Shown here in pieces: positions 11,280 to 56,475 of a DNA stretch of 64,000 bases (within the stretch, counting starts at the first letter, position 1; the number at the start of each line of letters is the position of its first letter). The DNA is taken from assembly GCF_003097315.1 (NCBI RefSeq), contig NZ_QDDL01000004.1, positions 62,001 through 126,000 of the forward strand. Direction: 5' to 3'. This DNA is from Pelagibaculum spongiae (GTDB lineage: Bacteria > Pseudomonadota > Gammaproteobacteria > Enterobacterales > Pelagibaculaceae). A model generated the notes under the pieces. That model was not told the DNA's origin and made no database searches. It was given only the letters and a program-made list of their open reading frames with translations. Made by a program: the position numbers and the translations under genes.

Positions 11280-11332
11280 AGTGTTGCCACAACATATTTT
11301 TTAAATGAGCTAAGTTTTTTGACTCAGCTGAA

Positions 11333-11428: not shown

Positions 11429-11431
11429 GTT

Positions 11432-11665
11432 TTACCGTATTAACGGTGAATGTTCTTGCTGCATTAATTCGATGGTCGCTTGTGCTTCTGCTTCATCAAG
11501 TTTGCTTAGCGCGTAACCAGTGTGCAAAATAACGTAATCACCCACTTGGACATCATCGATTAAGGCAACAGAGATTTCTCTGCGAATACCATCTATAGAA
11601 ACTACTGCCATTTCATCGCTTCCATCGACGAGCGATTCTATTTTAACTGGAATTGCTAGGCACAT
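11432..11665 (-). CDS. hypC: Hydrogenase maturation chaperone HypC
   Basis: A 77-aa HypC/HybG/HupF chaperone. The essential N-terminal MCLAIP is present: C2 binds the iron of the Fe(CN)2CO unit with HypD and then the hydrogenase large-subunit precursor. The core [21 protein letters not shown] and [18 protein letters not shown] is typical, as is the short length. It starts one base after the hypF stop, implying translational coupling. Confidence 0.96.
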
Positions 11666-11666
11666 A

Positions 11667-14177
11667 TTATTTATCTCCTGATACTTTATGTTGCTGAGGT
11701 TGCACTTTATTTAAGTGCATTCGAGCAGCATAAAGCTGACCTAAACTAATTGAGCCGTCATTCACCGGATGGCAAATCGGCAAGTAAACATTAAACCCAA
11801 GTTGCTGCAGTTTTTGTTGCAGTCCCTGGGCGAGTATTTGATTTAAAAAACAGCCGCCAGATAAACAAATATCTTTAATGCCGGTTTTTTTGCTAGCAGA
11901 GATCACCCAGCGAGCCAGTGCTTCAATCAGTTGCTGGTGGAACCAGTAGGCCAATTGATTTTGTCGGCTAATGCTTATCGGAGGAATACTTGACTGAATC
12001 AGAACATTAAATATTGGCAGCAAATCCAGTACAAAAGGCTGTGAACTGCTAGAGGTAATTCTGGCTAAACTAGTCGGTTGTTCTGAAGCTGCGGCAGAAT
12101 TTGACTGGCTGGCATCTTTGGCTGCAGCGGCTTCTAGTTTGCTGGCTGCTTCGGCTTCAAAACTATTAACCTGGCAAATATTTAACAATGAAGCGCAAGC
12201 GTCAAATAAGCGACCCATTGAACTGGTTTTTGGGCAGTTTAGCTGTTTCTGTAGCATGGTTTCGGTAAAGGCTGCAGCGGCAAAATCTTTAAAGCGAGAT
12301 TTAATTTGTTGTGAATTGCCGGTGGAAAATAAAACCGATGCCGCCATTCGCCATGGCGCTTTGGCTGCGGCATCACCGCCGGGTAATGCTAAAGGTTGTA
12401 GGCCGCCCAAATGTTGGCAGCCATCGGCATTTACTAATAGCAATTCTCCGCCAAGCAAACTTTTGTTATCAGCAACTTGACTGATATCTAACGACTGGCC
12501 GCCAAAGCCTAAGCCATCAAGCGCAAGGCCAATCACCGGTTGCGCTAACTGATATTCAGCCATCACCGCGGCAATATGTGCATGGTGATGCTGAACTTGT
12601 AACAACGGAATATTCAGCTGTTGGCTTATTTGTTGGGCAAAGCGAACTGCAGGGCTTTCTGGATGACTGTCAGCGATAACAATGTCGGGCTGCATTTGAT
12701 AAGCCTGACTTAAATGACGATAGATTTCTTTTTGAAATTCAATATTGCCGACACAATTCAAATCGCCAATGTGTTGGCTGAAATGAGCCATTTCGCCTTG
12801 GCTATAACAGATGCTGTTTTTTAGATAACTGCCGGTGGCTAGAATATTTAAATCGTTATTTTTATTTAATAATTTTGGCAAAAATACCGGTGCCGGTGCA
12901 TAACCCCTGCCGCGACGAATCATGATTGATGGCTGTTGCTCAGTGCCGGCGATTAATAGCGGGTCATCGTTACGAATTAAAATATCCCGGTCATGCAATA
13001 AAAAGTAATCAGCAATATTAGATAACCGATTGATTGCTTCTCGATTGTCGATCACCAGTGGTTCACCTGAAGGATTGGCGCTGGTCATAACCAATAACAA
13101 ATCCTGCGGCTGGTTTAGCCATGCTTCAGTCGCCGGTTGACCGGCTGCTTGGTGAAATAACAACCAATGAATCGGGGTATATGGCAGCATTACGCCGAGT
13201 TGGTTTAAACCATCGGCAACGCCGTTAATTTGTAGTTCTATTTGTGACTGTTTTTGACATAAAACAATCGGCGCTTGTGCTGATTTTAATAAATCTGCAG
13301 TCGATGGATTTATTGTAACCCAACGCTCAAGGGACGCGGTGTTCGCAGCCATTACCGCAAAAGGTTTAGCTGGGCGATGTTTACGAGCGCGCAATTTAGC
13401 CACTGCATCGGCATTATTTGCGTCGCAAACCAAGTGGAAACCACCCAAACCTTTTATTGCCAGAATCTCGCCCTGACGTAATCGTTCAAGGGTTTGTTCG
13501 ATTGGATCGCCATCGATTGGCTGACCCTGATTATTCAGCAAGCTAAGCTGTGGCCCGCAAGTATTGCAAGCATTGGGCTGGGCATGGAAACGCCGATCTT
13601 GCGGATCAGAATATTCTTGCTGGCAACTTTTACATAATTCAAAGCCGGCCATAGTGGTAAATGGTCGGTCGTAAGGTAAGTCAGCAATAATGGTGTAACG
13701 CGGGCCGCAATGGGTGCAATTTATAAAAGGATAACGGTAGCGTGGGTTTTTCGGGTCGAGTAATTCGCTACGGCAGTCATCGCACAATGAAGCGTCCGGG
13801 CTAATTAATGTGCTGATTTTCTGATTGTTTTCTGCTGAATTCGCTATTTTTTGCGGTGTTGCTCGAATTGCGAAAATCGCTGGCTGATTGTTTTTTACCG
13901 ATTCAATGACTTCAGAAAATGACTCAATATCTAGCTGGTTTTCTGGTAGTGATTGAATTTGGTTAATTCGAGCCAAACGAGGTAGTTCACTTTGTAAACG
14001 TTGAATAAACAGGTCAATATTTTTCTGCTGACCACAAAGACGAATCTCTACTCCGAGCCCGTTGTTGCAGACATCACCCGAACAATCACATTGTTTGGCT
14101 AAATTAAATACAAAGGGACGAAAGCCGACCCCTTGTACGATGCCTTTAATTGCAAATCCTTGTATTTGCCATTTCAT
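11667..14177 (-). CDS. hypF: Carbamoyltransferase HypF
   Basis: An 836-aa enzyme that uses carbamoyl phosphate and ATP to carbamoylate the C-terminal cysteine of HypE. Domains in order are: acylphosphatase ([14 protein letters not shown] near the N-terminus); two zinc-finger-like segments ([23 protein letters not shown]); a YrdC-like domain ([15 protein letters not shown]); and a Kae1-like C-terminal domain with [15 protein letters not shown] and LSGGCFLNQ. The ATG at 14177 starts directly at the acylphosphatase domain. An earlier in-frame start at 14222 would read through the repeat element and is unlikely. The alanine/serine-rich segment around residues 675-705 looks like an insertion in the Kae1-like part. 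Confidence 0.96.
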
Positions 14178-14183
14178 AGCAAA

Positions 14184-14282
14184 CAATCCAATGTAGGCTG
14201 CGCTGAGCCTATGGCGAACCACAATATTTTATGGGTCACGTTGTGACTCGCGTACCGCTCGACACAACCTACTTTAGGATTG
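14184..14282. repeat. Palindromic intergenic repeat in hypB-hypF spacer
   Basis: A roughly 99-nt element with inverted ends: AATCCAATGTAGG at the left and CAACCTACTTTAGGATT at the right. Inside, GGGTCACGTTGTGACTC forms a second inverted pair. It fills nearly all of the 123-nt hypB-hypF gap and belongs to the widespread GTAGGTTG-type intergenic repeats. Confidence 0.7.
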
Positions 14283-14300
14283 GCAATTAATTTCATAGGA

Positions 14301-15167
14301 TTAACCGATCGCCTTTAACTGGTTTTCGACTTCTGCCAGTTCTTCAGCCAGATGCTGACGTTTGTGCTCAAGCTGGTGCGACAGTTGATGCTTCAACCAA
14401 TCAGTCCACTGTTGCATGCCTTCGCCAGTTTTTGATGATAACTGCAAAACTTTTAGTTCTGGTCGAATGCGGCGGGCATAATCGATGCACTGTTCAACAT
14501 CAAAATCCAGATGCGGTAATAAATCGGTTTTGGTTAAAATCATTAAATCGGCATTAGCAAAAATATCTGGGTATTTAATCGGTTTATCTTCACCTTCAGT
14601 GACCGATAAAATAACCACTCGAGCATTCTCGCCTAAATCAAATTCGGCAGGGCAAACCAGATTGCCAACGTTTTCAATAAATAGAAAGCCGCCGTTCTTT
14701 ACTGCAAGATCTTCCAATGCGTGGCCGACCATATGGGCGTCTAAATGGCAGCCTTTTCCGGTATTGATTTGAATTGCTGGTGCGCCGGTGGCACGAATAC
14801 GCTCGGCATCATTGGTGGTTTGTTGGTCACCTTCGATTACTGCGCAAGGAATGCTTTCCTTCAATAATTCAATGGTTTCTGTCAGTAGGCTGGTTTTCCC
14901 TGAGCCTGGGCTAGAAACTAAATTGAGTGCTAATAAACCTCTGTCGGCAAATTTATGTCGATTAATATGGGCGTAGCGATTATTTCTGGCCAATAAATCT
15001 TGTTCAATTTTTAAGGCGCGCTGACCTTCCATGCCCGGTGCATGGCTATGTTGCGCTGCCACTGGTTCAGCCTTACTAGTAGGTTGTTCAGAATGTGAAT
15101 GAACATGGCTGTGAGTGTGACCTTCGATAATCGCAGCGTCGCCGCCGCAACCGCAAGTAGTGCACAT
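14301..15167 (-). CDS. hypB: Nickel-inserting GTPase HypB
   Basis: A 288-aa SIMIBI GTPase that, with HypA, delivers nickel to the hydrogenase large subunit. The N-terminus carries MCTTCGCGG, the CXXCGC high-affinity nickel site found in some HypBs, followed by the histidine-rich [10 protein letters not shown] (residues 17-26), which can store nickel. The P-loop SPGSGKT is at 86-92, followed by [13 protein letters not shown], the interface metal site [10 protein letters not shown], and the guanine motif LTKTDLL. Downstream of hypA by 50 nt. The C-terminal 30 residues form a charged helix. Confidence 0.97.
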
Positions 15168-15217
15168 AATAAAACCTCAAATTTTTTAGGTAGGATTTTT
15201 AAAATGATTAATAAAAA

Positions 15218-15559
15218 TTAATCTACCAATAATTCTTTCAATTGCATTTCAGTGCCGGCAATTGGCTGAAGACCAAAATTACCGCATTCACAACAAGGGT
15301 CGTAACGCTGCAGCATAGGCACTTCTTTATTACAACTGATACACAAACCTTTTCCTTCGGGACGAGTGATCACCACTTTGGCATGCTCGGCAACCGTGCC
15401 ACGTAAAACGCTTTGTAAGCAAAACTCCATGGCACCGGCTTCAACACCCGACATTTGGCCAATCTCCAGCCAAAGCTCAGTGACTTGGTTAAAGCTGTTT
15501 TGTGCCCGATGATCTTCAATAATTTGTAATACGCCTTCGGCTAATGACATTTCATGCAT
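15218..15559 (-). CDS. hypA: Nickel metallochaperone HypA
   Basis: A 113-aa HypA. The N-terminal MHE gives the nickel ligand H2, and the zinc site is formed by C73-x2-C76 and C89-x2-C92 (GLCISC; PCCECG). The length and central IGQMSGVEAGAMEFCL match the family. A strong AAGGAAAA Shine-Dalgarno precedes the ATG. It is the first gene of the hypABFCDEX operon. Confidence 0.97.
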   Translation of the reverse strand: MHEMSLAEGVLQIIEDHRAQNSFNQVTELWLEIGQMSGVEAGAMEFCLQSVLRGTVAEHAKVVITRPEGKGLCISCNKEVPMLQRYDPCCECGNFGLQPIAGTEMQLKELLVD

Positions 15560-15575
15560 GATTGTTTTCCTTCAT

Positions 15576-15932
15576 TCATTTATTGGCACTTGAGGGCGGG
15601 CATTTATAAATTGGAATATAGGTTGAGCCAAATATTGAATGGTCAACATAGTAAAATTCAAAAGAGCCAAAATTTGATTGCATGGGTGACGGGGCAGTAT
15701 TTGAATGTTTCATAGATTCGATGCTTTTTGAGAGATGGAATGATGACGCTATGTTTTCTCTCGTCAATTGAATCTGTTGAACCAATCGCTGTGTATTAAT
15801 GCGCAAGCTGAACCGCTGATCAATTTTATATTGAACAGTTTGGTGCTTCAGATTTTTTACCAAAACTGAAAAAATAAGTATTCCGCGTGGAATAACTTCA
15901 AAGTTTTGGTCTGACAAGCGAAGTGTGAACAT
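15576..15932 (-). CDS. Hypothetical protein upstream of hypA
   Basis: A possible 118-aa product ending 16 nt before hypA on the same strand. I recognise no domain. The N-terminal half has strand-like hydrophobic alternation (VIPRGILIFSVLVKNLKH) and the rest is serine- and glutamine-rich. No Shine-Dalgarno is visible before the ATG. The open frame could be chance in a region that otherwise would be the operon leader. If real, it would be the first cistron of the hyp operon. Confidence 0.3.
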   Translation of the reverse strand: MFTLRLSDQNFEVIPRGILIFSVLVKNLKHQTVQYKIDQRFSLRINTQRLVQQIQLTRENIASSFHLSKSIESMKHSNTAPSPMQSNFGSFEFYYVDHSIFGSTYIPIYKCPPSSANK

Positions 15933-16307
15933 TCAAACATCTGCTTTTTCGCTGAATAGCTAGCGACAATGTATCTTGGCAAGCAACCGCGAACCCTGTC
16001 GCGGCTCAATACCTGATGCTTTTGTGAGATGACTAACGACTTTTATTGTCTTGATGCGGATTAATTTCAAGCAGTCTTGCCGACTCTGCTCGAGTTATTC
16101 CAACTATTCGCTGAGGATCTTTGGGCATGTTTTGTTTCGGTATTAATCGTTACATTTGCTATTGAGCGACAATACTACTGTCTTGGAATATCAGCTTCGC
16201 TTTGGGATGTTTTGGGTCGAGGCATTTTGGCTGTAAGTGCTCTAGATATAGATACTTTTCAGATGTGTATTTAATGCGGAGGTTTTATAGGTTTTTGCTT
16301 GCTAGCA
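15933..16307. other. Intergenic region upstream of the hyp operon
   Basis: About 375 nt with no convincing gene. A 65-codon plus-strand frame (16077-16274) has no start signal or similarity. The promoter of the hyp operon is expected here or in the adjacent 15560-15930 stretch. I see no clear -24/-12 sigma-54 motif. Confidence 0.5.
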
Positions 16308-16334
16308 TTAACAGGGCGTAATACGCCCTGTTAA
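16308..16334. terminator. Perfect 27-nt palindrome after the FadL-type gene
   Basis: TTAACAGGGCGTA and TACGCCCTGTTAA are perfectly complementary around a single A. It lies 20 nt beyond the stop of the minus-strand FadL-type gene. The T-run is on the upstream side for that gene, so it is a probable but not textbook terminator. Confidence 0.6.
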
Positions 16335-16354
16335 AAAACAATCACAAATTATGA

Positions 16355-17929
16355 TTAGAACTTGTGGTTGTATTGAACGCCAAGCAACCATGCCTGAGAT
16401 TCAAACGTGCCTCGGGTGGTATGTTTGCTGCCTGTGAAGCCACCTTCACCTAATGCGGGTGGTGGCGTATCTTGGCCGGCCCAATCGTTATAATTCACTT
16501 CGGCAGTTTTGAATAAAATCATGCTGCCAGCGAAGTCTATTGTTTGAGTTTTTGATAGCTGCCAAGCCGCACCCACAGAGAGCATCTGTCGATCAGAATC
16601 TGGCAGGGAAGGCGAGCGATACTCATCTTGCACCGGCGACTGGTCAAATGCATAACCGGCACGCAATAACAGTGAGGGTGAATATTGGTAATTACTCGCT
16701 AGTGACAGGCGTAGTGTATTTTTTAAATTAGCTGGAGTTAAACTGTCGTTTAGTAGGCTGAGAATGTTAACCCGGATTTCTTGAATTACAGACCATTCAG
16801 TCCAGGTAAGATCAGATAATAGTGACAGGTTGGGGCTGATTTGATGATAGCTATGAAGGCTGGCAGTCGCCGGTGTCGTCATTTGAGCTTCGGCTTTACT
16901 ATCAACGAATAAAACTTCATCTAATACTAAATGTACCAAGTCGCCGATGTCTTTTATTTTTGTTGCATTTTCAGAAACGGTCCAGTCCAGCTTTCCTTTG
17001 ATTTGGTGTTTGATTTGTGAGCGATAGGCAAAACCAAATCGATGACTGCGATTCGGCTGATACATCATGCCAAGGTTATAACCAAAGGAGAAATCATCTC
17101 CTTCAAAAGCAACTTCACCATCATTGTTTGCATCGTTGGCGCCAACTAGATCGTCGAGGGATTTATTAACGCCGTTACGAATGCTTTCGATATTTTTTAC
17201 CGCAAGATCTAACTTTCTTTTTGCTTCTTCAGGATTTTTTGCATCCGAACAATCGGTCATGCTTTTGCAGCCATTCTGTATTGGTGCTGCTTTGAGCTGA
17301 TCGTCTGCAAGGGTATTGGCAATAAAATGTACACCGGCAATTTGATCGGCTGCTTTTCTTCTTTGTAGTGAGAAATACTGACCACTAACACCAAAGCCAA
17401 ATGACATCTGGTTGGTCGGCTTCCATGAAATAGCTGGGTTGATGTTAAGGGCAATGGTTTGTGATTCTATACCGTCATAGCGGCCAATCCAGTCTTCACT
17501 GAAATGTCCCGCTATCGTATAGGGTGCGCTAATACCTAATCCGGCAGTGAGTTGATCATTGATGGGGTAAGCATAATAAGCCATCGGAACCGGCGTCGCT
17601 TTTACCGGATCGCCTTCATCACCACCTGAAATTGGTGCGCCTGCGATTGTTTCTGATGTGCCTTGAGACGTGCCATTAGTAAAATTGACATTGGCATCCG
17701 CCACCATCAATGAAAAAGTAAATTGCTGTCGATTGAGCCAAGAAAGTGCCGCAGGGTTGTAAAATTGCGCCGAAGCATCATCGATTGCAGCGGCACCGGC
17801 ATTAGCATTTCCTAAGGCGCTAATACTGATGCTGGGTGCTGCCAGTGCTGCGGCGTAAGTTGCCCCTGCGGGCACGACAAGTGCGCTAATTAAAAGCGCT
17901 ATTGCTGATTGTCGGGCATTTAAATACAC
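16355..17929 (-). CDS. FadL/OMPP1-family outer-membrane transport protein
   Basis: A 524-aa outer-membrane barrel of the FadL/TodX family, which takes up long-chain fatty acids or other hydrophobic compounds. After the signal peptide (ending near GATYAAA), the mature start contains the family hatch region SISALGNANAGAAAI, DDASAQFYNPAAL. Barrel strands follow, with FGFGVSGQYFSLQ and FGFAYRSQIKHQIKG, ending in an aromatic C-terminus (YNHKF) for Bam recognition. An aspartate/asparagine-rich loop (VGANDANNDGEVAFEGDD, about 260-277) looks like a calcium-type insert. It lies next to phasin and PhaR genes, consistent with fatty-acid import feeding polyester storage; that link is inference. Confidence 0.9.
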   Translation of the reverse strand: MYLNARQSAIALLISALVVPAGATYAAALAAPSISISALGNANAGAAAIDDASAQFYNPAALSWLNRQQFTFSLMVADANVNFTNGTSQGTSETIAGAPISGGDEGDPVKATPVPMAYYAYPINDQLTAGLGISAPYTIAGHFSEDWIGRYDGIESQTIALNINPAISWKPTNQMSFGFGVSGQYFSLQRRKAADQIAGVHFIANTLADDQLKAAPIQNGCKSMTDCSDAKNPEEAKRKLDLAVKNIESIRNGVNKSLDDLVGANDANNDGEVAFEGDDFSFGYNLGMMYQPNRSHRFGFAYRSQIKHQIKGKLDWTVSENATKIKDIGDLVHLVLDEVLFVDSKAEAQMTTPATASLHSYHQISPNLSLLSDLTWTEWSVIQEIRVNILSLLNDSLTPANLKNTLRLSLASNYQYSPSLLLRAGYAFDQSPVQDEYRSPSLPDSDRQMLSVGAAWQLSKTQTIDFAGSMILFKTAEVNYNDWAGQDTPPPALGEGGFTGSKHTTRGTFESQAWLLGVQYNHKF

Positions 17930-30708: not shown

Positions 30709-30851
30709 TCGGTTGACTATTGCCGCGTACTACTCATATCAACCTTCGCCTGATTTCTACTTTAGTCCAGTCGCTTAACCCGTAAACTCGTGCCACAATG
30801 ACCGCTAATTTAGAGGCGTCAGTTTTGGCGATTGCGCAGGGCAGCGAGTCT

Positions 30852-33287
30852 ATGAGTCACCACGGTATTGATAAATCGAAGCTTTCTGAAACCGATATCA
30901 TCAGCAAGTTTGTGCTGCCTGCGATCAAAGATGTCGGCTGGGACGATCTAACCCAGATTCGCCAAGAAGTAAAACTGCGTGATGGCAAGGTGGTGGTGCG
31001 AGGTACAGTCGCATCGCGGTTGAAAGTGAAGTCTGCAGATATCGTGCTCTACCATAAACCCAGCATGCCGCTAGCGGTAATAGAAGCCAAAGCCAACAAA
31101 CATGAAATGGGCAAAGGCATGCAGCAAGGGTTAGATTATGCCCGGCTGCTTGATGTGCCGTTTGTGTTTGCAACCAATGGCGATGGTTTTATCTTTCACG
31201 ACAAAACTGGCCTTTGTAACGCAACGCTAGAAACCCAAATTGCATTGGAAGACTTTCCAACGCCTGAGCAACTGTGGCAAAAGTTTTGTATTTGGAAGGG
31301 CTATACCGAACAGCAACTGCCAATTATCACCCAAGATTATTACGACGATGATAGCGGAAAAACCCCGCGTTATTACCAGCTGCAAGCCATCAATAAAACC
31401 ATAGAAGCGGTTTCATCGGGGCAAGATCGAGCGCTATTAGTCATGGCGACCGGCACCGGTAAAACCTACACCGCATTTCAAATTATTTGGCGATTATGGA
31501 AAGCTAAAAATAAAAGACGGATTTTGTTTTTAGCCGACCGAACCGCACTAATCGAACAAACCAAAAAGGGTGACTTTCAACCTTTTGGCACCGCGATGAC
31601 CTGGTCAAAAAATAGAACAGTTGACCCGGCATTTGAAATTCACCTTGGGTTATATCAAGCGCTGACCGGGCCAGAAGAACATCAAAAAGCCTACAAACAG
31701 GTTTCGCCAGATTTTTTTGATTTGATTGTTATCGACGAGTGCCACCGTGGCAGTGCCGCAGAAGACAGTGCTTGGCGGGAAATTCTCGATTACTTTTCTA
31801 GTGCGACTCAAATCGGTTTAACCGCCACACCGAAAGAAACCAATGAAGTGTCTAATATCGATTACTTCGGTGATCCGGTTTATACCTACTCACTGAAAGA
31901 AGGTATTGAAGACGGTTTCCTCGCGCCTTACAAAGTGGTGCGGGTGGATATCGATATTGACCTGCAAGGCTGGCGACCCACTAAAGGTCAGGTGGATAAA
32001 AATAACGAAATTATTGACGACCGAATTTATAATCAAAAAGATTTCGACCGCAGCATGGTAATTGATGAGCGCACCCATTTAGTTGCGCAAACCATTACCA
32101 ACTATTTAAAACGTACTGACCCGATGGCGAAAACCATCGTTTTCTGCAACGACATTGACCACGCCGATAGAATGCGCCGGGCTTTAATTAATTTAAACCC
32201 TGAGCAATATCAGAAAAATGAAAAATATGTAATGAAAATTACCGGTGATGATGAACTGGGTAAAGCGCAGTTAGAAAATTTCACCAATCCGAAAAAAGCC
32301 TATCCGGTAATTACTACTACATCGGAATTAATGACCACCGGTATTGATGCAAAAACCTGTAAGCTAGTGGTGTTAGACCAGAACATTCAGTCAATGACCA
32401 AGTTCAAACAAATCATTGGTCGTGGCACTCGAATTGATGATAAGTACAACAAGCTTTGGTTCACCATTCTCGATTTCAAAAAAGCCACAGAACTGTTTGC
32501 CGATGAACGCTTTGATGGTGAACCGGTAAAAATTATCAATACCACGCCAGCGGAAGTTGAAGACCCAGACGTTAATATTGAAGGTGACGATTACACGCCA
32601 ACTGAGATAGATGGTTCGGAATTGATTCATGAAATTCCGCCTGAAGCTGATGGTGGTTTTAACAATTCAAATGATCAGCCATGGACAGATTTTGAGCCGA
32701 CAGACGATCAAGAAGTAAAAATCACTAAATTCCATGTTAACGGCGTGACGGTAAAAGTAATGGCTGAGCGAGTGCAGTACTATGACACCGATGGCAAACT
32801 GGTCACCGAGTCCTTTAAGGATTACACCAAAAAGGCACTGAAAAAACAGTTTGCTTCGTTAGATGAATTCACCAAAAAATGGAATGATAGCGAACGTAAG
32901 CAAGCCATTATAGATGAGTTAGAAACTGCCGGAGTGCTGTGGGATGCGCTTGAACAAGAAGTTGGCAAGGCGCTAGATCCTTTCGATTTGATCTGCCATG
33001 TAGTGTATGATCAGCCGCCGCTAACCCGCCGCGAGCGGGCGGATAATGTGAAAAAGCGCAATTATTTCACACGTTATTCAGAAACCGCTCAAATGGTACT
33101 GAGTAATTTGTTAGAGAAATATGCCGATGTCGGAGTGCAAGAAATTGAGAATAAAAACATTCTCAAGCTAGAGCCTTTTAGCGAGATTGGTCGACCGATT
33201 GAAATCGTTAAAAAAGGTTTTGGCAAACCGGCCGATTATGAGCAAGCCCTCACCGAGCTAGAAGCTGAAATCTATCGTATCGGTTAG
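30852..33287 (+). CDS. hsdR: Type I restriction enzyme R subunit (HsdR, EcoEI-like)
   Basis: An 811-aa translocating endonuclease subunit. The N-terminal PD-(D/E)XK nuclease has VKSADIVLY and AVIEAKANK. The superfamily 2 helicase follows with Walker A ATGTGKT (about 200-205), DECH (about 295-298), LTATP and the C-terminal motif GRGTRID. The C-terminal region matches the EcoEI_R family. The ATG at 30852 directly precedes [16 protein letters not shown], the usual HsdR start; an earlier ATG at 30798 adds 18 residues. It cuts DNA after ATP-driven translocation when the HsdM/HsdS target is unmethylated. Separated from hsdM by 248 nt of repeats. Confidence 0.95.
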
Positions 33288-33371
33288 TATGAGCTGAAAA
33301 GTAGATTAGAAAAGCACTCCGCCTTCTGACAATTCAAATAGATCGGATGGCGTTATATTGATTCAGTCTGG

Positions 33372-33412
33372 TTTTCGTAGCCTGGGTAAGCTTCAGGCGC
33401 ACCCGGGGTTTT
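33372..33412 (+). repeat. Dispersed intergenic repeat, copy 2 (GTAGCCTG type)
   Basis: Begins TTTTCGTAGCCTGGGTAAGC and continues through GGCGCACCC. It is the counterpart of the inverted copy at 1901-1944 and lies in the hsdR-hsdM spacer. Confidence 0.7.
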
Positions 33413-33439
33413 CAGGGTGTTTTATATGTTCCAAAGCCC

Positions 33440-33494
33440 TTAGGTTCTCTGGCAATGAAAAAATGTCAGATGGCGCTGCGCTTATCTAACCTAC
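33440..33494. repeat. Palindromic TAGGTT repeat in hsdR-hsdM spacer
   Basis: Bounded by TTAGGTTCTCT on the left and TATCTAACCTAC on the right, with ATGTCAGATGGCGCTGCGC inside. It belongs to the same broad GTAGGTT...AACCTAC class as the elements at 11333-11428 and 39578-39664. It lies 42 nt ahead of the hsdM start. Confidence 0.6.
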
Positions 33495-33535
33495 GAAATA
33501 ATCACCCATTTTTAAATATTTACCAAGAGAACATC

Positions 33536-35029
33536 ATGTCGATCAGTGCAACCATTAAATCCATTCAAGATATTATGCGTAAAGATGCCGGTGTTGACGG
33601 TGATGCGCAGCGCTTAGGTCAAATGTCATGGCTGTTATTTCTTAAAGTGTTTGACGCCCAAGAACAAGAGCTGGAATTTGAGCAAGATAATCATTATCGA
33701 ATGCCAATTCCTGAACAATACCTATGGCGCAACTGGGCGGCAGACAGCCAAGGCATTACCGGCGATGATTTATTGCAGTTTATTAATGACAAGTTATTTC
33801 CGGAATTAAAAAACCTAATTGCGCCCATCGACACCAATCCGCGTGGCCATGTGGTAAAAGCCGCTTTTTCTGACGCATTTAATTACATGAAAAACGGTAC
33901 CTTGCTGCGTCAGGTAATTAATAAATTAAATGATATTGATTTCACCGACTCCAAAGAACGCCATTTATTCGGTGATATTTACGAGCAGATATTAAGAGAT
34001 CTGCAAAGTGCCGGTAATGCCGGTGAGTTTTATACTCCGCGTGCCGTCACCCGCTTTATGATTGACCGAATTAACCCGCAACTGGGTGAAACCATTCTTG
34101 ACCCGGCCTGTGGCACCGGCGGTTTTCTGGCCTGCGCCATGGACCATTTAAAAAGCCAGGTAAAAACCACCGAAGACCATAAAACCCTGCAAAAACAGAT
34201 TTACGGTGTTGAGAAAAAACAATTGCCGCATTTGTTATGTACCACCAATATGCTGTTGCATGGTATTGAAGTGCCGGTGAATATTCGCCACGGTAATACC
34301 TTGAGTAAATCCTTGTCTAGCTGGGATGACCATATCGATATTATCGTCACCAACCCGCCGTTTGGTGGCACAGAAGAAGACGGAATTGAAAAGAATTTCC
34401 CAGCGGAAATGCGCACTAGGGAAACCGCCGATTTATTCTTGCAATTAATTGTCGAAGTATTGGCCGATGGTGGCTCTGCCGCGGTAGTACTGCCCGATGG
34501 CACCTTGTTTGGCGAGGGCGTAAAAACCAAAATCAAAAAGCTACTCACCGAAGAGTGCAACCTGCACACCATCGTGCGCCTGCCCAACGGCGTATTTAAT
34601 CCCTACACTGGCATTAAAACCAATATTTTATTCTTTACCAAAGGCGATGGTTCTAAAGAGAAAGCCACTAAAGAGACCTGGTTCTACGAGCACCCGTATC
34701 CGGAAGGCGTAAAGAACTACAGCAAAACCAAACCGATGAAGTTTGAAGAGTTCAAAGCCGAACAACAATGGTGGGGCGATGAAGCTGACGGTTTTGCCGC
34801 ACGGGTTGAGAACGAACAGGCATGGAAAGTCAGCATTGATGAGATCATCAAACGCAACTTCAACCTCGATATCAAGAACCCTCACGTTGGCGAAATCATC
34901 AGTCACGACCCCGATGAATTGCTCGCAGAATACGCCCAGCAACAGGAACAGATTCACGGTTTGCTGGATCAGTTGAAGGGGATTCTGGGTGCTGCACTAA
35001 CTAACGATTCTGCCAAAGGTGCAAACTAA
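33536..35029 (+). CDS. hsdM: Type I restriction-modification methyltransferase (HsdM)
   Basis: A 497-aa N6-adenine methyltransferase subunit. An HsdM N-terminal helical domain (AQRLGQMSWLLFLKVFDAQE) is followed by the catalytic domain with SAM motif DPACGTGGF (about 189-197) and catalytic NPPFGG (about 273-278). AGEFYTPRAVT is the usual link between them. The ATG at 33536 has AAGAGAA upstream; longer in-frame starts run through the repeat. The stop overlaps the hsdS ATG (TAATG), so HsdM and HsdS are coupled, as needed for the M2S1 complex. Confidence 0.96.
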   Translation: MSISATIKSIQDIMRKDAGVDGDAQRLGQMSWLLFLKVFDAQEQELEFEQDNHYRMPIPEQYLWRNWAADSQGITGDDLLQFINDKLFPELKNLIAPIDTNPRGHVVKAAFSDAFNYMKNGTLLRQVINKLNDIDFTDSKERHLFGDIYEQILRDLQSAGNAGEFYTPRAVTRFMIDRINPQLGETILDPACGTGGFLACAMDHLKSQVKTTEDHKTLQKQIYGVEKKQLPHLLCTTNMLLHGIEVPVNIRHGNTLSKSLSSWDDHIDIIVTNPPFGGTEEDGIEKNFPAEMRTRETADLFLQLIVEVLADGGSAAVVLPDGTLFGEGVKTKIKKLLTEECNLHTIVRLPNGVFNPYTGIKTNILFFTKGDGSKEKATKETWFYEHPYPEGVKNYSKTKPMKFEEFKAEQQWWGDEADGFAARVENEQAWKVSIDEIIKRNFNLDIKNPHVGEIISHDPDELLAEYAQQQEQIHGLLDQLKGILGAALTNDSAKGAN

Positions 35030-36804
35030 TGGCTGCTGTAGAGCAACTGATTACTGACAATATTGCTACTTGGGCGCAGGCGGTGCAGAAGCGTAACGCC
35101 ACTGGCCGAGGTTCCAGCAAGAAGATTGAGCTGTATGGCATCAAAAAACTGCGTGCTCTGATTCTGGAGCTGGCGGTTCGAGGTAAGTTGGTACCTCAAG
35201 ATTCTGAGGATGAACCGGCTTCTGTTTTGTTGGAACGGATTGCTGCTGAGAAGAAACTGCTGGTTAAAGAGAAAAAGATCAAAAAGCAAAAAGAATTATC
35301 AACAATTTCTGAGAGTGACAAGCCATTTGAGTTACCGCAAAACTGGAAGTTTTGTCGATTAAACGATTTAACCATTGCTGCTGAAGCAGGTTGGAGTCCT
35401 CAATGTGAATTACACCCAAGGGAAGGTAATAACTGGGGTGTTTTGAAGGTAAGTGCGGTTACGTGGGGAGTATATAAGCCAAAAGAAAATAAAGAATTAC
35501 CTCAAGCGCTAGAACCTCGCCCCAAATACGAGGTGAAAAGTGGTGACTTTCTTATCTCAAGGGCGAATACCGCAGAGCTTGTGGCTAAGGCTGTTGTAGT
35601 GCCAGAAAATGCTCCAAAGTACTTGATGATGAGTGACAAAATTATTCGATTCCAATTTTCAAAAACAGTATCAAGTCATTACATAAATTTAGTAAATAAC
35701 AGCATGTTTTCTCGTAGCTATTATGCGCAGGTTGCAGGTGGCACAAGTAGCTCCATGAAAAACGTTTCTCAAGGTCAAGTGCGGAACCTTATTGTTGCTC
35801 TTCCTCCACTCGCAGAACAACACCGCATAGTCACCAAAGTCAACGAACTCATGTCCCTGTGCGACCAGCTGGAACAGCAAACCGAAACCAGCCTCACCGC
35901 CCACACATCACTGGTAGAAAACCTGCTCGCCACACTCACCAGCAGCACCGATGCCGCCGAACTGGAACAGAACTGGCACCGCATTGCCGAACACTTCACC
36001 ACTCTGTTCACCACAGAATCCAGCATCGACCAGCTCAAACAAACCGTGCTGCAACTGGCGGTAATGGGCAAGCTGGTACCTCAAGACCCGAACGATCAAC
36101 CTGCGTCTGTACTGCTGGAAAAAATTGCTGCTGAAAAGGAGCAATTGATCAAAGAGAAGAAGATTAAGAAGCAGAAAGCGTTGCCGCCGATTGGGGAGGA
36201 TGAAAAGCCGTTTGGGTTGCCTGATGGGTGGGAGTGGAGTCGTTTTTCTGAAGTTGCGTATTCGCGGTTAGGTAAAATGCTCGACAAAGCAAAGGACCAA
36301 GGTGAATCGAAAAAGTATTTACGAAATACGAATGTCCAATGGCAAAAAATTGACCTGTTAGATATTAAAGAAATGAAATTTGAACATGCTGAGCTGCAAG
36401 AGTTTGAGTTACATAAAGGAGATTTATTGATTTGCGAAGGTGGCGAGCCAGGGCGTTGTGCCATTTGGCAACATGACAACATTGATATTTACTTTCAAAA
36501 AGCACTTCACCGCGCAAGGACATACACTGGTGTGATTCCTGAGTATCTAGAAATATGCTTGATGGTAGATGCTGCCAATGATTCTCTTGCTCAACTATTT
36601 ACTGGAGCCACAATAAAACATTTGACAGGTGATAAGCTCTCTCGACATATAATTTCGATTCCTCCTTCAGGGGAACAAGCCAGAATAATTAGTCAAGCAC
36701 TCCAATTATCGACTCTCTGCAACCACCTAAAAACCCACCTCCAACAAGCCCAACAAACCCGCCTGCATCTGGCCGATGCGATGGTGGAAAAAGCGTTGGG
36801 GTAA
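35029..36804 (+). CDS. hsdS: Type I restriction-modification specificity subunit (HsdS)
   Basis: A 591-aa specificity subunit made of two half-subunits, each with a conserved helical block and a variable target-recognition domain. The conserved blocks (about residues 40-90 and 333-390) are nearly repeats: ELAVRGKLVPQDSEDEPASV against QLAVMGKLVPQDPNDQPASV, both continuing with IAAEK and KEKKIKKQK. Each target domain ends in a PPL(A/S)EQ-like segment (VALPPLAEQHRIV; ISIPPSGEQARII). Two target domains imply a bipartite DNA site, which cannot be read from sequence. Target domain 2 is more AT-rich than its flanking helices, as expected for exchanged domains. Confidence 0.94.
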   Translation: MAAVEQLITDNIATWAQAVQKRNATGRGSSKKIELYGIKKLRALILELAVRGKLVPQDSEDEPASVLLERIAAEKKLLVKEKKIKKQKELSTISESDKPFELPQNWKFCRLNDLTIAAEAGWSPQCELHPREGNNWGVLKVSAVTWGVYKPKENKELPQALEPRPKYEVKSGDFLISRANTAELVAKAVVVPENAPKYLMMSDKIIRFQFSKTVSSHYINLVNNSMFSRSYYAQVAGGTSSSMKNVSQGQVRNLIVALPPLAEQHRIVTKVNELMSLCDQLEQQTETSLTAHTSLVENLLATLTSSTDAAELEQNWHRIAEHFTTLFTTESSIDQLKQTVLQLAVMGKLVPQDPNDQPASVLLEKIAAEKEQLIKEKKIKKQKALPPIGEDEKPFGLPDGWEWSRFSEVAYSRLGKMLDKAKDQGESKKYLRNTNVQWQKIDLLDIKEMKFEHAELQEFELHKGDLLICEGGEPGRCAIWQHDNIDIYFQKALHRARTYTGVIPEYLEICLMVDAANDSLAQLFTGATIKHLTGDKLSRHIISIPPSGEQARIISQALQLSTLCNHLKTHLQQAQQTRLHLADAMVEKALG

Positions 36805-36881
36805 CTAATTTTGACTACAAAACCTTTTCAGCTAGACTGTTGCTTTTGCTAGCAGTCTGGCTTTAAACAACTGGTATAGCT

Positions 36882-37577
36882 GTGGAATATAATGTTTACT
36901 GCGATGAGTCATGCCATCTTGAAAATGATCAACAAAAGTCGATGGTGTTGGGGGCTATTTGGTGTCCGGTTTCCAAGAGATTGGAAATTGCCAAACGTAT
37001 TCGAGAGATCAAAATAAAGCATAAGTTAACCAGCAATTTTGAAGTGAAGTGGACCAAGGTGAGCCCATCCAAGCTTGGGTTTTATATGGAATTGCTTGAT
37101 TATTTCTTCGACGATGATGATCTGCACTTCCGGGCAGTTGTCGTTCCAGATAAACAACTGCTGAATCATCAACGTTTTGCGCAAAGTCATGATGACTGGT
37201 ATTACAAAATGTTTTTTGTAATGCTGAAAGTGATCTTTGAACCAGACAGTCGTTATTTTGTGTATATCGACATAAAAGATACCCTGGGGCATGAAAAAAT
37301 TACCAAGCTGCATGATGTGCTTTGCAATAATGCGTATGACTACTCAAAAAAAATTATACGTGATGTAAAGCGGATTCACTCTCATGAAGCGGAGCAATTG
37401 CAGTTGGCTGACTTACTTATTGGTGCGCTTTCTTACCTCCACCGTGGTTATTCATCAAACTCGGCAAAAATAGCATTAATTGAACGAATTAAAGCAAGGA
37501 GTGGTTACCGGCTCACTCAGAATACCTTGCAGAGAGAAAATAAATTTAATCTGTTTATCTGGAATTCTCAGGGGTAA
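36882..37577 (+). CDS. DUF3800 protein
   Basis: A 231-aa DUF3800 member. The family has an RNase H-like fold and frequently sits in mobile or defence loci, but its activity is not established. Features are YCDESCHLEN at the N-terminus (acidic D8 and E9), VKWTKVSPSK, a central DWYYKMFFVMLK helix, YIDIKDTLG (second acidic cluster), and IHSHEAEQLQLADLLIGA near the end. The acidic residues are placed as in nuclease-type RNase H folds; this is inference. It begins 77 nt after hsdS, and its stop overlaps the start of the next gene, so the two form a unit. Confidence 0.85.
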   Translation: MEYNVYCDESCHLENDQQKSMVLGAIWCPVSKRLEIAKRIREIKIKHKLTSNFEVKWTKVSPSKLGFYMELLDYFFDDDDLHFRAVVVPDKQLLNHQRFAQSHDDWYYKMFFVMLKVIFEPDSRYFVYIDIKDTLGHEKITKLHDVLCNNAYDYSKKIIRDVKRIHSHEAEQLQLADLLIGALSYLHRGYSSNSAKIALIERIKARSGYRLTQNTLQRENKFNLFIWNSQG

Positions 37578-38068
37578 TGCATTTGAATCCACAATGGTTA
37601 CCTGAGTTAATTCTTATGGAGGACTTTGCCGGGGATTGGGGTAGTTTCTTTGCTGCGGTTTATGAAGTTTTTCGTCAGGATTTTGAGCAAGACAAGCCAG
37701 TTTTCAGAGGTAAGCGTTTGGGGCTTAAGCGGCACCCGGAATATGACGGAAAATCTGCCACTTTTTGGCATATGATCTCTGAAGGAACGGTTGAAGATGA
37801 CCGCGTGCCGGATATTCGACGCTGTGAAAGAATTGGTTGGCCTAGACCGATTATTGAAAACAGCGAAGATGCAGTGTTAAAAGTTTGGGCGGAACCTCGA
37901 GGCAAAAACCAGAGGATACATCTATGGCTCGAGTCAGAAGGTTATCTGGTGGTGTTGGATGACCGTGGGGAGTATATCTTGCCCTGGACAGCATTCTACA
38001 TTGAGCGTGAGCACCAGCGTACGAAGTACACAAAAAGATGGAATCGATATAAAAACAATGGGGTTTGA
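37577..38068 (+). CDS. Unknown protein coupled to DUF3800; possible small nuclease-type toxin
   Basis: A 163-aa protein whose ATG overlaps the DUF3800 stop (TAATG). I do not recognise it with confidence. Notable features are FWHMISEG, RRCERIGWPRPIIEN, KVWAEPRGKNQRIHLWL, then EGYLVVLDDRGEYILPWTAFYIE and a basic end (RTKYTKRWNRYKNN). The order of a histidine, RxP...W-R-IIE, and a late hydrophobic strand with T-A-[FY] resembles the small BECR-fold nucleases (PBECR-like) seen in phage and toxin systems. That is a pattern impression only. Linkage to DUF3800 and a type I restriction operon suggests a defence or toxin function. Confidence 0.6.
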   Translation: MHLNPQWLPELILMEDFAGDWGSFFAAVYEVFRQDFEQDKPVFRGKRLGLKRHPEYDGKSATFWHMISEGTVEDDRVPDIRRCERIGWPRPIIENSEDAVLKVWAEPRGKNQRIHLWLESEGYLVVLDDRGEYILPWTAFYIEREHQRTKYTKRWNRYKNNGV

Positions 38069-38072
38069 TCTG

Positions 38073-38101
38073 CAGAGGGATAAAGCTGGCCGCGCCCTCT
38101 G
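38073..38101 (+). terminator. Short hairpin after the DUF3800-linked gene
   Basis: CAGAGGG (38073-38079) pairs with CCCTCTG (38095-38101), 5 nt beyond the stop codon. No T-run follows, so termination is uncertain. Confidence 0.35.
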
Positions 38102-38482
38102 ATGAAGACGGAGCCGTAACTCTTTCTACACTGACGCTTGCGCTGGTAGATGAGATGCCTGAATCATAGTGCTCAGTCTTTTAGATTGCAATCCCAAATA
38201 TACCTGATAAAACATCCAGTAGTCTGTTTGTGGCTTACCAATTTCACTGGGAATGCGGGTCGCCCGCCCGCCTGCTTGAATGCGATGGCATTCGGTATCA
38301 ACATAATTGGTGCCTTTGGCGTGGATTTGATCGAATAGGGGTGGCAAGTAATACGAGAGCTCAGCAGGTAGGTGCAATTTTGCAGTAGTACGCAATGAGC
38401 TTGTCAGTAGTTGTGATGAAGGATTGGTATTTTTAAATATGGTTTTGGCAGAAAACTGCTGTTCAGTATCTAACAGGATATA
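38102..38482 (-). pseudogene. Possible gene fragment on the minus strand before darG
   Basis: The minus strand reads without a stop from 38482 down to a TAG at 38126, about 119 codons in DNA that is otherwise noncoding. The translation looks protein-like, with segments PAELSYYLPPLFDQIHAKG and TRIPSEIGKPQTDYWMFYQV, but I cannot name a family. No start codon with a ribosome-binding site fits, so it would be a 5'-truncated remnant. It is not a DarT remnant by any motif I can see. Confidence 0.3.
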
Positions 38483-38485
38483 GTG

Positions 38486-39520
38486 ATGACGATTAACTCT
38501 GTAATGGGTAATTTGCTGCAACAGCACGATGCTGATGCAATCGTCAATACTGTGAATTGTGTCGGTGTGATGGGTAAAGGCATTGCGCTGCAGTTTAAGA
38601 AAAAATGGCCTGATAATTTTAAAGCTTATGCCAGAGCGTGCAAGGATGAGCAGGTTCACTTGGGGAAAATGTTTGTTTTTGATCTGGGTGGGCTGGCAAC
38701 GCCGCGCTATATTATTAATTTTCCAACTAAAGGCCATTGGCGCAGTGCATCGCAACTGGCTGATATAGAAAGCGGCCTGGCAGATCTGGTTGAACAAATT
38801 CAAAAAATTGGCATTCGCTCAATTGCTATTCCACCGCTTGGATGTGGTAATGGCGGACTGGATTGGCAGGTGGTCAAGCCATTAATCATCAAATATTTCT
38901 CTGCGATTGATGCCGTTGAAGTTCGCGTGTTTGAACCAAATGATTCGATTAAAGCCAGTGACATGGAAGTGGGTAGCCGCAAGCCTAAAATGACACCGGG
39001 CCGTGCTGCGATTTTGTCATTATTGGAAATATATAAAAGCCAGAATTACGGTTTGTCGAAAATTGAAGTACAGAAACTGGCTTATTTTCTTCAGGTTTCT
39101 GGACAGAATTTAAAATTAAATTTTGTTAAACACCAGTATGGCCCTTATGCAGATGCGCTGCGACACGCTTTGGAACGAATGGATGGGCATTACATTCAAG
39201 GTGTTGGCGATGGGGTGGTTGCGGCAGAAATTACGCCAACCGAAAGCGCATTAAATGACGCGAAACAATTTTTGAAACAAGCCGACTCAGCCATAACAAG
39301 CCATGTTCAACGGGTTGCTGATTTAATAGAAGGTTATCAATCACCTTATGGTGTTGAGTTGTTGGCAACGGTGCATTGGGTCGCAGCTTATGAAGGTGCA
39401 ACATCACCAGAGCAGGCCTTCGCTTTGATCCAGCAGTGGAATGCGCGTAAAAAGCAATTAATGACTTGCCAGCATGTTGAATCTGCCTGGATGCAATTAA
39501 AACAGCTTAACTGGATTTGA
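38486..39520 (+). CDS. darG: DarG-type DNA ADP-ribosyl glycohydrolase (macrodomain antitoxin)
   Basis: A 344-aa DarG. The N-terminal macrodomain has MGNLLQQHDADAIVNTVNCV (adenine/ribose loop), GVMGKGIALQFKKKWPDNF, YIINFPTKGHWR (the lysine of this motif, about K82, is the position reported as catalytic in DarG) and IPPLGCGNGGLDW. The C-terminal half (MTPGRAAILSLLEIY, LSKIEVQKLAYFLQVSG, YGPYADALRHALERMDGHY) is the DarT-interacting part found in full-length DarG. DarG removes ADP-ribose from thymidines that DarT modifies. No DarT-like gene precedes it. AGGA lies seven bases before the ATG at 38486; a GTG three bases earlier is less suitable. Confidence 0.92.
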   Translation: MTINSVMGNLLQQHDADAIVNTVNCVGVMGKGIALQFKKKWPDNFKAYARACKDEQVHLGKMFVFDLGGLATPRYIINFPTKGHWRSASQLADIESGLADLVEQIQKIGIRSIAIPPLGCGNGGLDWQVVKPLIIKYFSAIDAVEVRVFEPNDSIKASDMEVGSRKPKMTPGRAAILSLLEIYKSQNYGLSKIEVQKLAYFLQVSGQNLKLNFVKHQYGPYADALRHALERMDGHYIQGVGDGVVAAEITPTESALNDAKQFLKQADSAITSHVQRVADLIEGYQSPYGVELLATVHWVAAYEGATSPEQAFALIQQWNARKKQLMTCQHVESAWMQLKQLNWI

Positions 39521-52885: not shown

Positions 52886-52915
52886 TAAAAGCCTGTAATA
52901 TTACAGGCTTTTTTT
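52886..52915 (+). terminator. Terminator of the DUF2301 gene
   Basis: AAAGCCTGTAA-TA-TTACAGGCTTT with a T-run extending to seven residues. Confidence 0.95.
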
Positions 52916-53374: not shown

Positions 53375-54352
53375 ATGAAAAAAATACTCAGAAACATATT
53401 TCAACAACATAAAACTTTGTTTTTTTCAGTATGGGTTAGTGTTGCGCTTTGTGTTTTCTCTGCAGCTGTTAGTGCTGAGCTAATAGAACTATCGGTTCAG
53501 GATTTACAACAAGATATCAATGTTTTACTGGAGGAGAAGTTCAAGACAGCTAATTATTCTCAGCGGGGAGCCGATACGTGTCTGGCGTGTCATAACCAAT
53601 ATTCTGACAAAGACGCTACTGGTATTTTTAGTAGCGGTCATGGCCGAGTAGATATAAAAGATGGACCTTTCCAGCGGCAAGAGTGTGAAACCTGTCATGG
53701 TCCAATTGGTGAGCATGCAACCTGGCCAGAAGAGGGGCAAGTTAGAGAGCCGATGGTGACTTTTGGTGAAAATTCACCTGTGTCCAAGCATAACCAAAAT
53801 AGTGTTTGCCTCAATTGCCATCAAGATGATCATAATAAAACTACTTGGTTAGGTAGTGCTCACCAATCGAATGATGTTGGCTGTACTTCTTGCCATACGC
53901 TGCATCAAGGTGATGACAAGGTTCGAGATAAAACTGATCAATATCAAGTGTGTACTTCCTGTCACCAAGAACGAAAAATGGATAAGCATAAGCGTTCTAA
54001 TCATATGTTAGGTGAAGGATTGTATGCCTGTAGTAGCTGTCATAATCCTCACGGAACACTTAACCAGAATATGCTGATTCAGCCGACTATTAATCAGACA
54101 TGTACTGAGTGTCATACCGAAAAAAGAGGTCCGTTCCTAAATGAGCATGCGCCGGTTGCAGAAGACTGTGCACTTTGCCACAGCCCACATAGTTCTAATG
54201 AGCGCTATTTGCTGAAGCAACGGATGCCTTTCTTATGTAAGAACTGCCATGTTGGGCAACATCAAAATGTGGCGGGCAATGTGGGTAGCGCAATCAATGG
54301 TAAGTCTTGCTTAAATTGCCATAGCGATATTCATGGCGGCAATCAATTATAA
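53375..54352 (+). CDS. Decaheme c-type cytochrome, MtrA/DmsE family
   Basis: A 325-aa periplasmic cytochrome with a signal peptide ending near AAVSA. There are exactly ten CXXCH haem sites, beginning at about residues 69, 104, 145, 170, 193, 219, 243, 265, 288 and 312, with the spacing of the MtrA/PioA/DmsE family. In that family the protein threads into an MtrB-type barrel and conducts electrons across the outer membrane. The barrel gene follows by 137 nt. A gene name is not assigned because MtrA, DmsE and PioA cannot be told apart here. Confidence 0.95.
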   Translation: MKKILRNIFQQHKTLFFSVWVSVALCVFSAAVSAELIELSVQDLQQDINVLLEEKFKTANYSQRGADTCLACHNQYSDKDATGIFSSGHGRVDIKDGPFQRQECETCHGPIGEHATWPEEGQVREPMVTFGENSPVSKHNQNSVCLNCHQDDHNKTTWLGSAHQSNDVGCTSCHTLHQGDDKVRDKTDQYQVCTSCHQERKMDKHKRSNHMLGEGLYACSSCHNPHGTLNQNMLIQPTINQTCTECHTEKRGPFLNEHAPVAEDCALCHSPHSSNERYLLKQRMPFLCKNCHVGQHQNVAGNVGSAINGKSCLNCHSDIHGGNQL

Positions 54353-54360
54353 CGATTTAT

Positions 54361-54387
54361 GCCGACACGGTGGTGTGCTCTGTCGGC
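54361..54387 (+). terminator. Intercistronic hairpin between cytochrome and barrel genes
   Basis: GCCGACA (54361-54367) pairs with TGTCGGC (54381-54387), 9 nt after the cytochrome stop, with no T-run. It may stabilise the upstream message rather than terminate it. Confidence 0.4.
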
Positions 54388-54489
54388 TACATCGAATGTG
54401 TTGGGTAATTCATTCATAAAATAACATCTTACTTGCCAGGCGCGTTGTAAACCAAAAGCTTGTGTTGCCTGACAAGCAGAGAGGCGAGT

Positions 54490-56475
54490 ATGAAAAGCAG
54501 AATTGATAAAAATGATGCTTTAAAGTTGGTTGCTGTCATATCTAAGATTGCTACATCTATGGCAATGGTATCTTTAGCCGCGATGACATCTGCTGAAGTA
54601 TCCGCGCAAGGATTTGATTTTAGCCGAATCAACTCTGGAGAAATCGATACCAGTCAATGGCAATGCGAAACCTGTTTGAATAAAAGTAATCGTAAAACAG
54701 ATGTATCTGTTAACGCGGGTTATTCAACTGACAGTAAACTTGCTCAAGAAAGACTAAGGCAGAGTGATAGCAACGGTGTTTTAGCAGAAACAGAAGCGAG
54801 TTACCTTTCGCGCCAGAAGCAATATCAGCTCACTGCAGATGCGAAATTAAGCACTGGTCAAAATAATATTCAGATTGAAATGCAGCGACATAATTCATAT
54901 TCGCTTGCGCTGAATGCTAACCAGATTGTTTATCAAGATGACTTGAATATTACCCCGCGTGGCGGTTTGATCTATGGCGGTACTATTGGCGCTAACAACA
55001 GCCAATTTGACCGTAAAAAACAACAAACACAAATTAAAGCTGAAAAATATTTATCTCAAAACACCAGTGTTTTTGTTGAGCTAGAACATAAGAAAAATAC
55101 TGCCAGCGGTACTCGGTTAAATTACTTATTTTTTAATCAAAATCCTCAAGTCGTTTTCTCTGAGGTTGATAACAAAGAAATTAAAGTAAATACCGGGATA
55201 CAACATCAACTTGAAAATGGCCAGTTCCAGTTAAGTTACCAAGCATCAAGGCTAACCAATGATGGTAAAGTCTATGGGCAAACTATTTTGAATAATGATC
55301 GGATAGCGCGAAGTACTGCGCCGAATAGTTTATTTCAAACAGTGGCTTTGTCGGTTAATTATCGGGTTAGCGAAAAAGATCATCTATTCTCGCAATTAAG
55401 TTATGGCACTCTGGAGCAAAACAAATACTTGAACGTTGATCAGCTAGCTGTTGGCCAAAATAGAGAATTGAATGGGTCAATCGATAGTATTAATGCAAAC
55501 GTTCGATGGATTCATCAGTTTTTCTCTCGATGGAATCTGAATCTTGACTATGCATTTGACCAAAGAAAAAACAAATTGGACGTGCCGCTTTTTGTTAATG
55601 GTATCGCCAATTGGTCTAAGAATAATCTTCGTAGTCAACGCTATAGTTCAGAGCTGTCGGGGCCATTGGCAGGCTTAAATCTCAAGTTGGGCGCAGAAAA
55701 TCGCTCGAACTGGCGGCCAGATCAAAATAGAGAGCATACAGATCAAACTCGTTTGTGGCTAAAGGCACGTAAGTCTTTATCATATAGAACTAGCTTGACC
55801 GGTGAGATTGCATGGTCAGATCGAGACGGTTCAGAGTTTAAAAATACCAGTCAATCGATGGATTATTACCTTGCCGATTTACAGCAGCAAAAAATTGAAT
55901 TGAAAATGAATACGGCTGTTCAGCGGTTAGGAATTAACACTCGATTATATCTGTTGAAAGATCAATATGATAAAAGCCAGAGTAGTTTGGTTGAAGAAAA
56001 CCGCTTAGGTGCAATTTTGGGTGCCAGTTATCATACCGGTCAAAATCACTCGTTTTATGGCTCGCTATCGCTGGAGCGAACTGATTATCTACGGGATTAC
56101 ACTCAGCCAGTGAGTAATGGTCAAGGTGGTTATTTTGGAGAAGTGGATCAACAGCTAGACTTTTCAGGAATCAACATAGGCTCTAGCTGGCAAGGGTTGC
56201 AGGAAAACCATCTTGATTTATCGATTGATATTAACTGGCTGCAAAGTATCGGTGATTATCAGCAAGTGAATGCGGAAAACGCTGATTTTCGTTCAACATT
56301 AGTAGAAATTTCGGGCGATTACCGACTGACCCCTAAGCTGAGCTTGCAAGCTGAAATGGCCTATCAGAGAACCAATGAAGACGATTGGCAGCAAGATAGC
56401 ATTTATTGGCTAGGCAGCAAGCAATTAAATGAAAGTGGTTACCAATATTTGCTGGGAATGAAATATCAGTTTTAA
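54490..56475 (+). CDS. MtrB/PioB-family decaheme-associated outer-membrane barrel
   Basis: A 661-aa outer-membrane protein forming the sheath for the preceding cytochrome. After the signal peptide, the mature N-terminus has the family C-x-x-C (QCETC, C59 and C62), known to matter for MtrB function in Shewanella. The remainder is a long series of alternating amphipathic strands with polar turns, as in a 26- to 28-strand barrel, ending in LLGMKYQF for Bam recognition. AGAGGCGAG precedes the ATG at 54490. The pair should form a conduit for electrons to or from outside the cell; direction and outer partner are unknown. Confidence 0.93.
   Translation: MKSRIDKNDALKLVAVISKIATSMAMVSLAAMTSAEVSAQGFDFSRINSGEIDTSQWQCETCLNKSNRKTDVSVNAGYSTDSKLAQERLRQSDSNGVLAETEASYLSRQKQYQLTADAKLSTGQNNIQIEMQRHNSYSLALNANQIVYQDDLNITPRGGLIYGGTIGANNSQFDRKKQQTQIKAEKYLSQNTSVFVELEHKKNTASGTRLNYLFFNQNPQVVFSEVDNKEIKVNTGIQHQLENGQFQLSYQASRLTNDGKVYGQTILNNDRIARSTAPNSLFQTVALSVNYRVSEKDHLFSQLSYGTLEQNKYLNVDQLAVGQNRELNGSIDSINANVRWIHQFFSRWNLNLDYAFDQRKNKLDVPLFVNGIANWSKNNLRSQRYSSELSGPLAGLNLKLGAENRSNWRPDQNREHTDQTRLWLKARKSLSYRTSLTGEIAWSDRDGSEFKNTSQSMDYYLADLQQQKIELKMNTAVQRLGINTRLYLLKDQYDKSQSSLVEENRLGAILGASYHTGQNHSFYGSLSLERTDYLRDYTQPVSNGQGGYFGEVDQQLDFSGINIGSSWQGLQENHLDLSIDINWLQSIGDYQQVNAENADFRSTLVEISGDYRLTPKLSLQAEMAYQRTNEDDWQQDSIYWLGSKQLNESGYQYLLGMKYQF

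Follow-up and report, generated by a model that had tools for sequence, protein, structure and literature searches.

A predicted MtrCAB/DmsEF-class electron conduit found without an MtrC, OmcA or DmsA homologue in Pelagibaculum spongiae

MtrA and MtrB form a ten-haem cytochrome seated in an outer-membrane barrel, through which Shewanella-like bacteria move electrons outward, and a surface protein normally caps the assembly. Clusters of mtrAB without mtrC are already known (PMC4245776) and a modular build around a core of MtrAB has already been proposed (PMC8805035); in the open-access literature we found no description of a CXXC-class conduit that is without any partner and has a shortened MtrA tail. 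Here we analysed such an mtrAB pair in a 64,000-nucleotide stretch of P. spongiae DNA (the window; positions 62001-126000 of a 427-kb contig), which belongs to a genome of 4.99 Mb in 21 contigs (Table 1). With moderate confidence, we read the pair as an outward conduit of the MtrCAB/DmsEF class whose surface reductase gene was lost secondarily.

Table 1 Features of the mtrAB locus, in window coordinates
Feature	Position	Strand	Description	Evidence
mtrA-like gene	53375..54352	+	Periplasmic/outer-membrane decahaem c-type cytochrome, 325 aa	TIGR03508, 6r2q_A, 10 CXXCH
mtrB-like gene	54490..56475	+	Outer-membrane barrel, 661 aa from preferred ATG	PF11854, 6r2q_B
CXXC (CETC) of MtrB-type barrel	54664..54675	+	Sole CXXC in barrel	
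Shortened MtrA C-terminal tail	54323..54349	+	SDIHGGNQL, 9 aa after haem 10	
Terminator-like hairpin	52887..52912	+	Closes upstream unit, 462 bp before mtrA	
GC-rich stem-loop	56499..56522	.	Perfect 8-bp stem between convergent mtrB and FAD-protein genes	Read from sequence

The cytochrome scored 267.1 bits against the NCBIfam model for DmsE-family decahaem cytochromes (TIGR03508; cut-off, 192.2) and matched chain A of the Shewanella MtrCAB structure (PDB 6r2q_A) at E = 1.5e-79. An open reading frame scan revealed exactly 10 CXXCH motifs in this protein and a single one elsewhere in the window (5744-6730; all frames >60 codons). All 10 alignment columns for distal histidines were conserved (residues 89, 114, 163, 177, 210, 226, 258, 272, 296 and 320), which predicts ten bis-His haems. 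For the barrel, the score against PF11854 (MtrB_PioB) was 152.6 bits (gathering score, 23) and the match to 6r2q_B had E = 1.4e-8, while its TIGR03509 score of 124.2 bits fell below the cut-off of 240.05, marking the barrel as divergent. Together with the CETC motif, these results bear out the ten haem sites and CXXC-bearing barrel reported in a preliminary description of this DNA. Its coordinates were also right. The start of the barrel gene is probably the ATG at 54490 and not the TTG at 54460 (54460-56475, + strand, 671 aa): the ATG has a purine-rich, ribosome-site-like sequence (AGAGAGGCGAG) and opens a signal-peptide-like N terminus. A single-sequence AlphaFold model of the barrel was unusable (pLDDT, 28). 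Loss of barrel surface charge was considered and dropped, as the net charge of −6, a figure that counts the whole protein, is near the least acidic end of the family range and still inside it.

The two genes appear to be transcribed as a separate unit, with the hairpin upstream and the stem-loop, a probable terminator shared by mtrB and the FAD-protein gene, downstream. A search upstream of mtrA for FNR- and CRP-like boxes returned nothing above chance level. By Pfam scan, the neighbours are SLAC1/TehA, a 789-aa protein without a Pfam match and DUF2301 upstream of mtrA, and an FAD protein, TrmO and a patatin downstream of mtrB. No MtrC, OmcA, DmsAB or CymA gene occurs among these neighbours and no haem protein in a further 16 kb downstream, in agreement with the earlier claim of a complete MtrA/MtrB conduit without such genes adjoining it. 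Hydrogenase maturation genes, also reported previously for the window, were recovered at about 8.8–15.6 kb (HypE and HypF by model, HypD/B/A-like by position and sequence). The suggested coupling of H2 to the conduit found no support: its sole basis is co-occurrence about 38 kb apart, and a restriction-modification island, ABC transporters and other genes lie between. At 30798-39517, the window holds type I restriction-modification genes and, after them, a DarG-type antitoxin.

Genome-wide, we identified one copy of MtrA. Models for OmcA and MtrC found no homologue in this 99.9%-complete genome: the best TIGR03507 match (E = 6e-4) was an Otr-type octahaem protein, and PF22113 matches were rejected as MtrC candidates, being weak and due to generic CXXCH similarity of NapC, octahaem and hexahaem proteins. 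A DmsA query yielded NapA, one other molybdopterin enzyme and nothing else, with the best relative in the genome no better than 30% over 244 aa. A small tetrahaem carrier of the STC/FccA type was not found, and the choice-of-anchor-V multihaem partner that adjoins mtrAB in other members of the class was absent from the genome. There are two NapC/NirT proteins, one in the nap operon and one on contig C8; the latter is 51% identical to the CymA encoded beside Photobacterium mtrCAB versus 38% to the genome's own NapC, so that the genome does have a CymA equivalent. Among the partners that the preliminary description had proposed seeking throughout the genome, MtrC, OmcA and DmsA were therefore not found, whereas a CymA-like protein was. 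On contig C8, the CymA-like tetrahaem protein adjoins an octahaem hydroxylamine/hydrazine-dehydrogenase-like cytochrome (L061:8558-10637, − strand). On contig C1 (L060:8021-10268, + strand), an Otr-family octahaem cytochrome that resembles tetrathionate reductase (TIGR04315, 609 bits) precedes a cytochrome b561-type subunit, and contig C4 has what looks, by gene sizes and starts alone, like a type VI secretion cluster (L168; G000:C4:22001-42000).

We placed 43 MtrA sequences in a maximum-likelihood tree, with genus labels taken from a named Photobacterium record and gene order, and examined the genes around 45 further MtrB-type barrels. MtrA fell inside an Enterobacterales clade (support, 100/100) as sister to Vibrio/Photobacterium/Aeromonas-type MtrCAB cytochromes (96/91), and all 19 other members of this clade lie beside mtrC or dmsAB. 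The barrel was placed in the same Enterobacterales MtrCAB/DmsEF clade (99 SH-aLRT) and not with the lone, CXXC-less clades, the named PioAB and MtoAB sequences being outside the sample. Constrained trees that grouped MtrA with CXXC-less or lone MtrAB were rejected (p-AU = 0.0045 and 0.0065). Surface partner genes adjoined CXXC-type barrels at 29/29 other assessable loci (L136, at a contig edge, was omitted) and were missing beside CXXC-less barrels at 11 of 15, in a count where rows are non-independent, the frame is broken in a few of the CXXC-less entries and order-level loci were drawn by similarity to MtrAB. In S. oneidensis MtrB, C42 of the CXXC motif is required for Fe(III) reduction (PMC12175506). 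The CXXC barrel, the clade placement and the rejected grouping argue for a partnered-class conduit without its partner, and not for a PioAB-type pair, overturning the initial likening to a minimal PioAB-like or MtrAB-only arrangement. The host family is sampled by one genome, so that partner loss is read from this genome alone; the host order includes several families with MtrCAB.

The same evidence bears on whether the pair could be a PioAB/MtoAB-like inward conduit that oxidises Fe(II) or takes electrons from an electrode, possibly together with H2 metabolism. Partnerless MtrAB clusters have been discussed mostly for Fe(II) oxidisers (PMC4245776) and MtrAB is able to run both ways (PMC8805035), but the CXXC-type barrel and clade placement go with reductive systems, PioC, MtoD and CymA-like genes are all missing from the adjacent region, the hyp genes are remote and the genome has nap and CymA-like quinol oxidation. 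We consider inward flow very unlikely.

The window MtrA also ends early. The stretch from haem 10 to the stop codon is 16 residues long in 40 of 42 relatives, mostly with HGSNHPSGxxxxR or close variants, and 19–20 in the other 2, against 9 here. A frameshift was excluded as the cause, as no other downstream frame encodes or restores the missing tail. Haem ligation is probably unaffected, because all ten distal histidines, which pair one-to-one with the ten haems, are kept and the conserved histidine lost with the tail is an additional, eleventh one. The crystal structure from S. baltica shows the MtrA C terminus facing outward, with only haem A10 and residues 284–306 open to MtrC (PMC7198977). 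We infer a contact between the tail and the surface partner, and that tail loss accompanies partner loss. The MtrC-contacting loop between haems 9 and 10 is about the same length as in MtrC-bearing Vibrio-type MtrA and therefore bears no sign of partner loss.

With 20/20 haem ligand residues and the barrel CXXC intact and both frames open, the electron-transfer function of mtrAB appears to be under selection. Against our preferred explanation, the branches of MtrA and MtrB are long (1.62 and 2.31, respectively), which also fits relaxed constraint, as would apply if mtrAB were a remnant drifting after the loss of mtrC with little or no present function. The barrel and its nearest relative share just 22% identity, and MtrA has 9 changes at 82 positions that are invariant in 18 clade members (other members, 0–2); these figures and the shortened C terminus point the same way. 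Decay is at odds with the complete set of ligands and the lack of stop codons in either frame, and we judge a remnant unlikely.

The preliminary statement that the conduit has no outer-surface cytochrome holds genome-wide for the MtrC/OmcA types and is established only for these, because contig C5 encodes a 1040-aa lipoprotein (L177:8250-11372, − strand; lipobox LLSC) with 6 CXXCH that is unrelated to MtrC/OmcA. This remote hexahaem protein might be the missing partner, which also counts against our preferred explanation. Its gene is divergent from a molybdopterin oxidoreductase gene, and its family is widespread and uncharacterised, without a good Pfam/NCBIfam assignment; relatives are 5–6-haem proteins, several with lipobox-like starts. 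MtrA is carried by 4/18 other class genomes with this family versus 20/350 without it (Fisher p = 0.023, phylogeny ignored). That a large multihaem protein with a lipobox occurs in the same genome, and that its family co-occurs weakly with MtrA, would fit its docking on MtrAB as a surface partner that is non-homologous to MtrC. We nevertheless regard docking as unlikely: the relatives adjoin mtrAB at 0/11 loci read, 14/18 carriers of the family have no MtrA match, the tail on the outer face of MtrA is shortened instead of kept and the surface location is only predicted. A replacement of MtrC by the hexahaem lipoprotein in which the MtrA tip was also reshaped to fit is decidedly unlikely; if true, the lipoprotein would give MtrAB a surface terminus of a novel type.

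For the outward conduit that we favour, the donor, the direction of flow and the acceptor would be as follows. Quinol would be oxidised by the CymA-like protein of contig C8, and electrons would cross the periplasm into MtrA at its N-terminal haems, a hop for which no carrier of the STC/FccA type was found. Inside the MtrB barrel they would then follow the chain of ten bis-His haems as far as haem 10, whose exposed edge could directly reduce soluble or chelated acceptors (ferric chelates, flavins and quinones); solid minerals would not be efficiently reduced by bare MtrAB. The substances that mtrAB reduces are thus probably dissolved and not solid. The model matches S. oneidensis mtrC mutants, in which soluble ferric chelates were reduced and oxides were not (PMC7198977), and MtrAB proteoliposome work (PMC4245776).

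MtrAB can be viewed as a core wire that takes added surface modules; here the module would be gone and the outer tip trimmed. Within a clade whose other sampled members all carry a surface module, the host mtrAB would offer a natural case for directly testing the purpose of the near-universal MtrA C-terminal tail (partner docking versus haem 10 capping) and the acceptors served by bare haem 10 in nature.

Other arrangements occur among the loci that we read. In the class relatives L138, L141, L145 and L137, MtrAB lies beside large 4–7-haem secreted proteins, of which the one in L141 has choice-of-anchor V, PKD and cytochrome c domains and is a different candidate surface partner. In L064 (G014, 4375-11733), a lone MtrAB appears to share an operon with a membrane protein resembling FAD/NAD reductases; its neighbours include, as judged by eye, a Fur/Zur-like regulator as well as a CobW-like GTPase, and a metal-starvation role is suggested for this pair. 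Locus L077 (G097, 6988-16910) encodes CymA, a 9-haem MtrA-like protein, MtrA, a CXXC-less MtrB and two MtrC-like proteins.

Compared with described systems, the P. spongiae pair shares with PioAB, MtoAB and other lone MtrAB the form of a two-gene conduit without a surface decahaem gene, but the lone MtrAB in our sample, which excludes the PioAB and MtoAB sequences themselves, are CXXC-less, belong to other clades and could not be grouped with it. DmsE and DmsF of DmsEFAB, the Shewanella extracellular DMSO/iodate reductase, are the same two proteins, and the model matched by the cytochrome is named for the DmsE family; unlike in that system, DmsA and DmsB do not adjoin. The pair differs from MtrCAB of Shewanella, Vibrio, Photobacterium and Aeromonas in that no mtrC/omcA-type surface gene or STC/FccA carrier was found anywhere in the host, the MtrA tail is 7 residues shorter and the barrel scores under the TIGR03509 cut-off. 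Like these MtrCAB systems, it combines MtrA and MtrB homologues of the same clade, a CXXC barrel and, elsewhere in the genome, a CymA-like quinol dehydrogenase.
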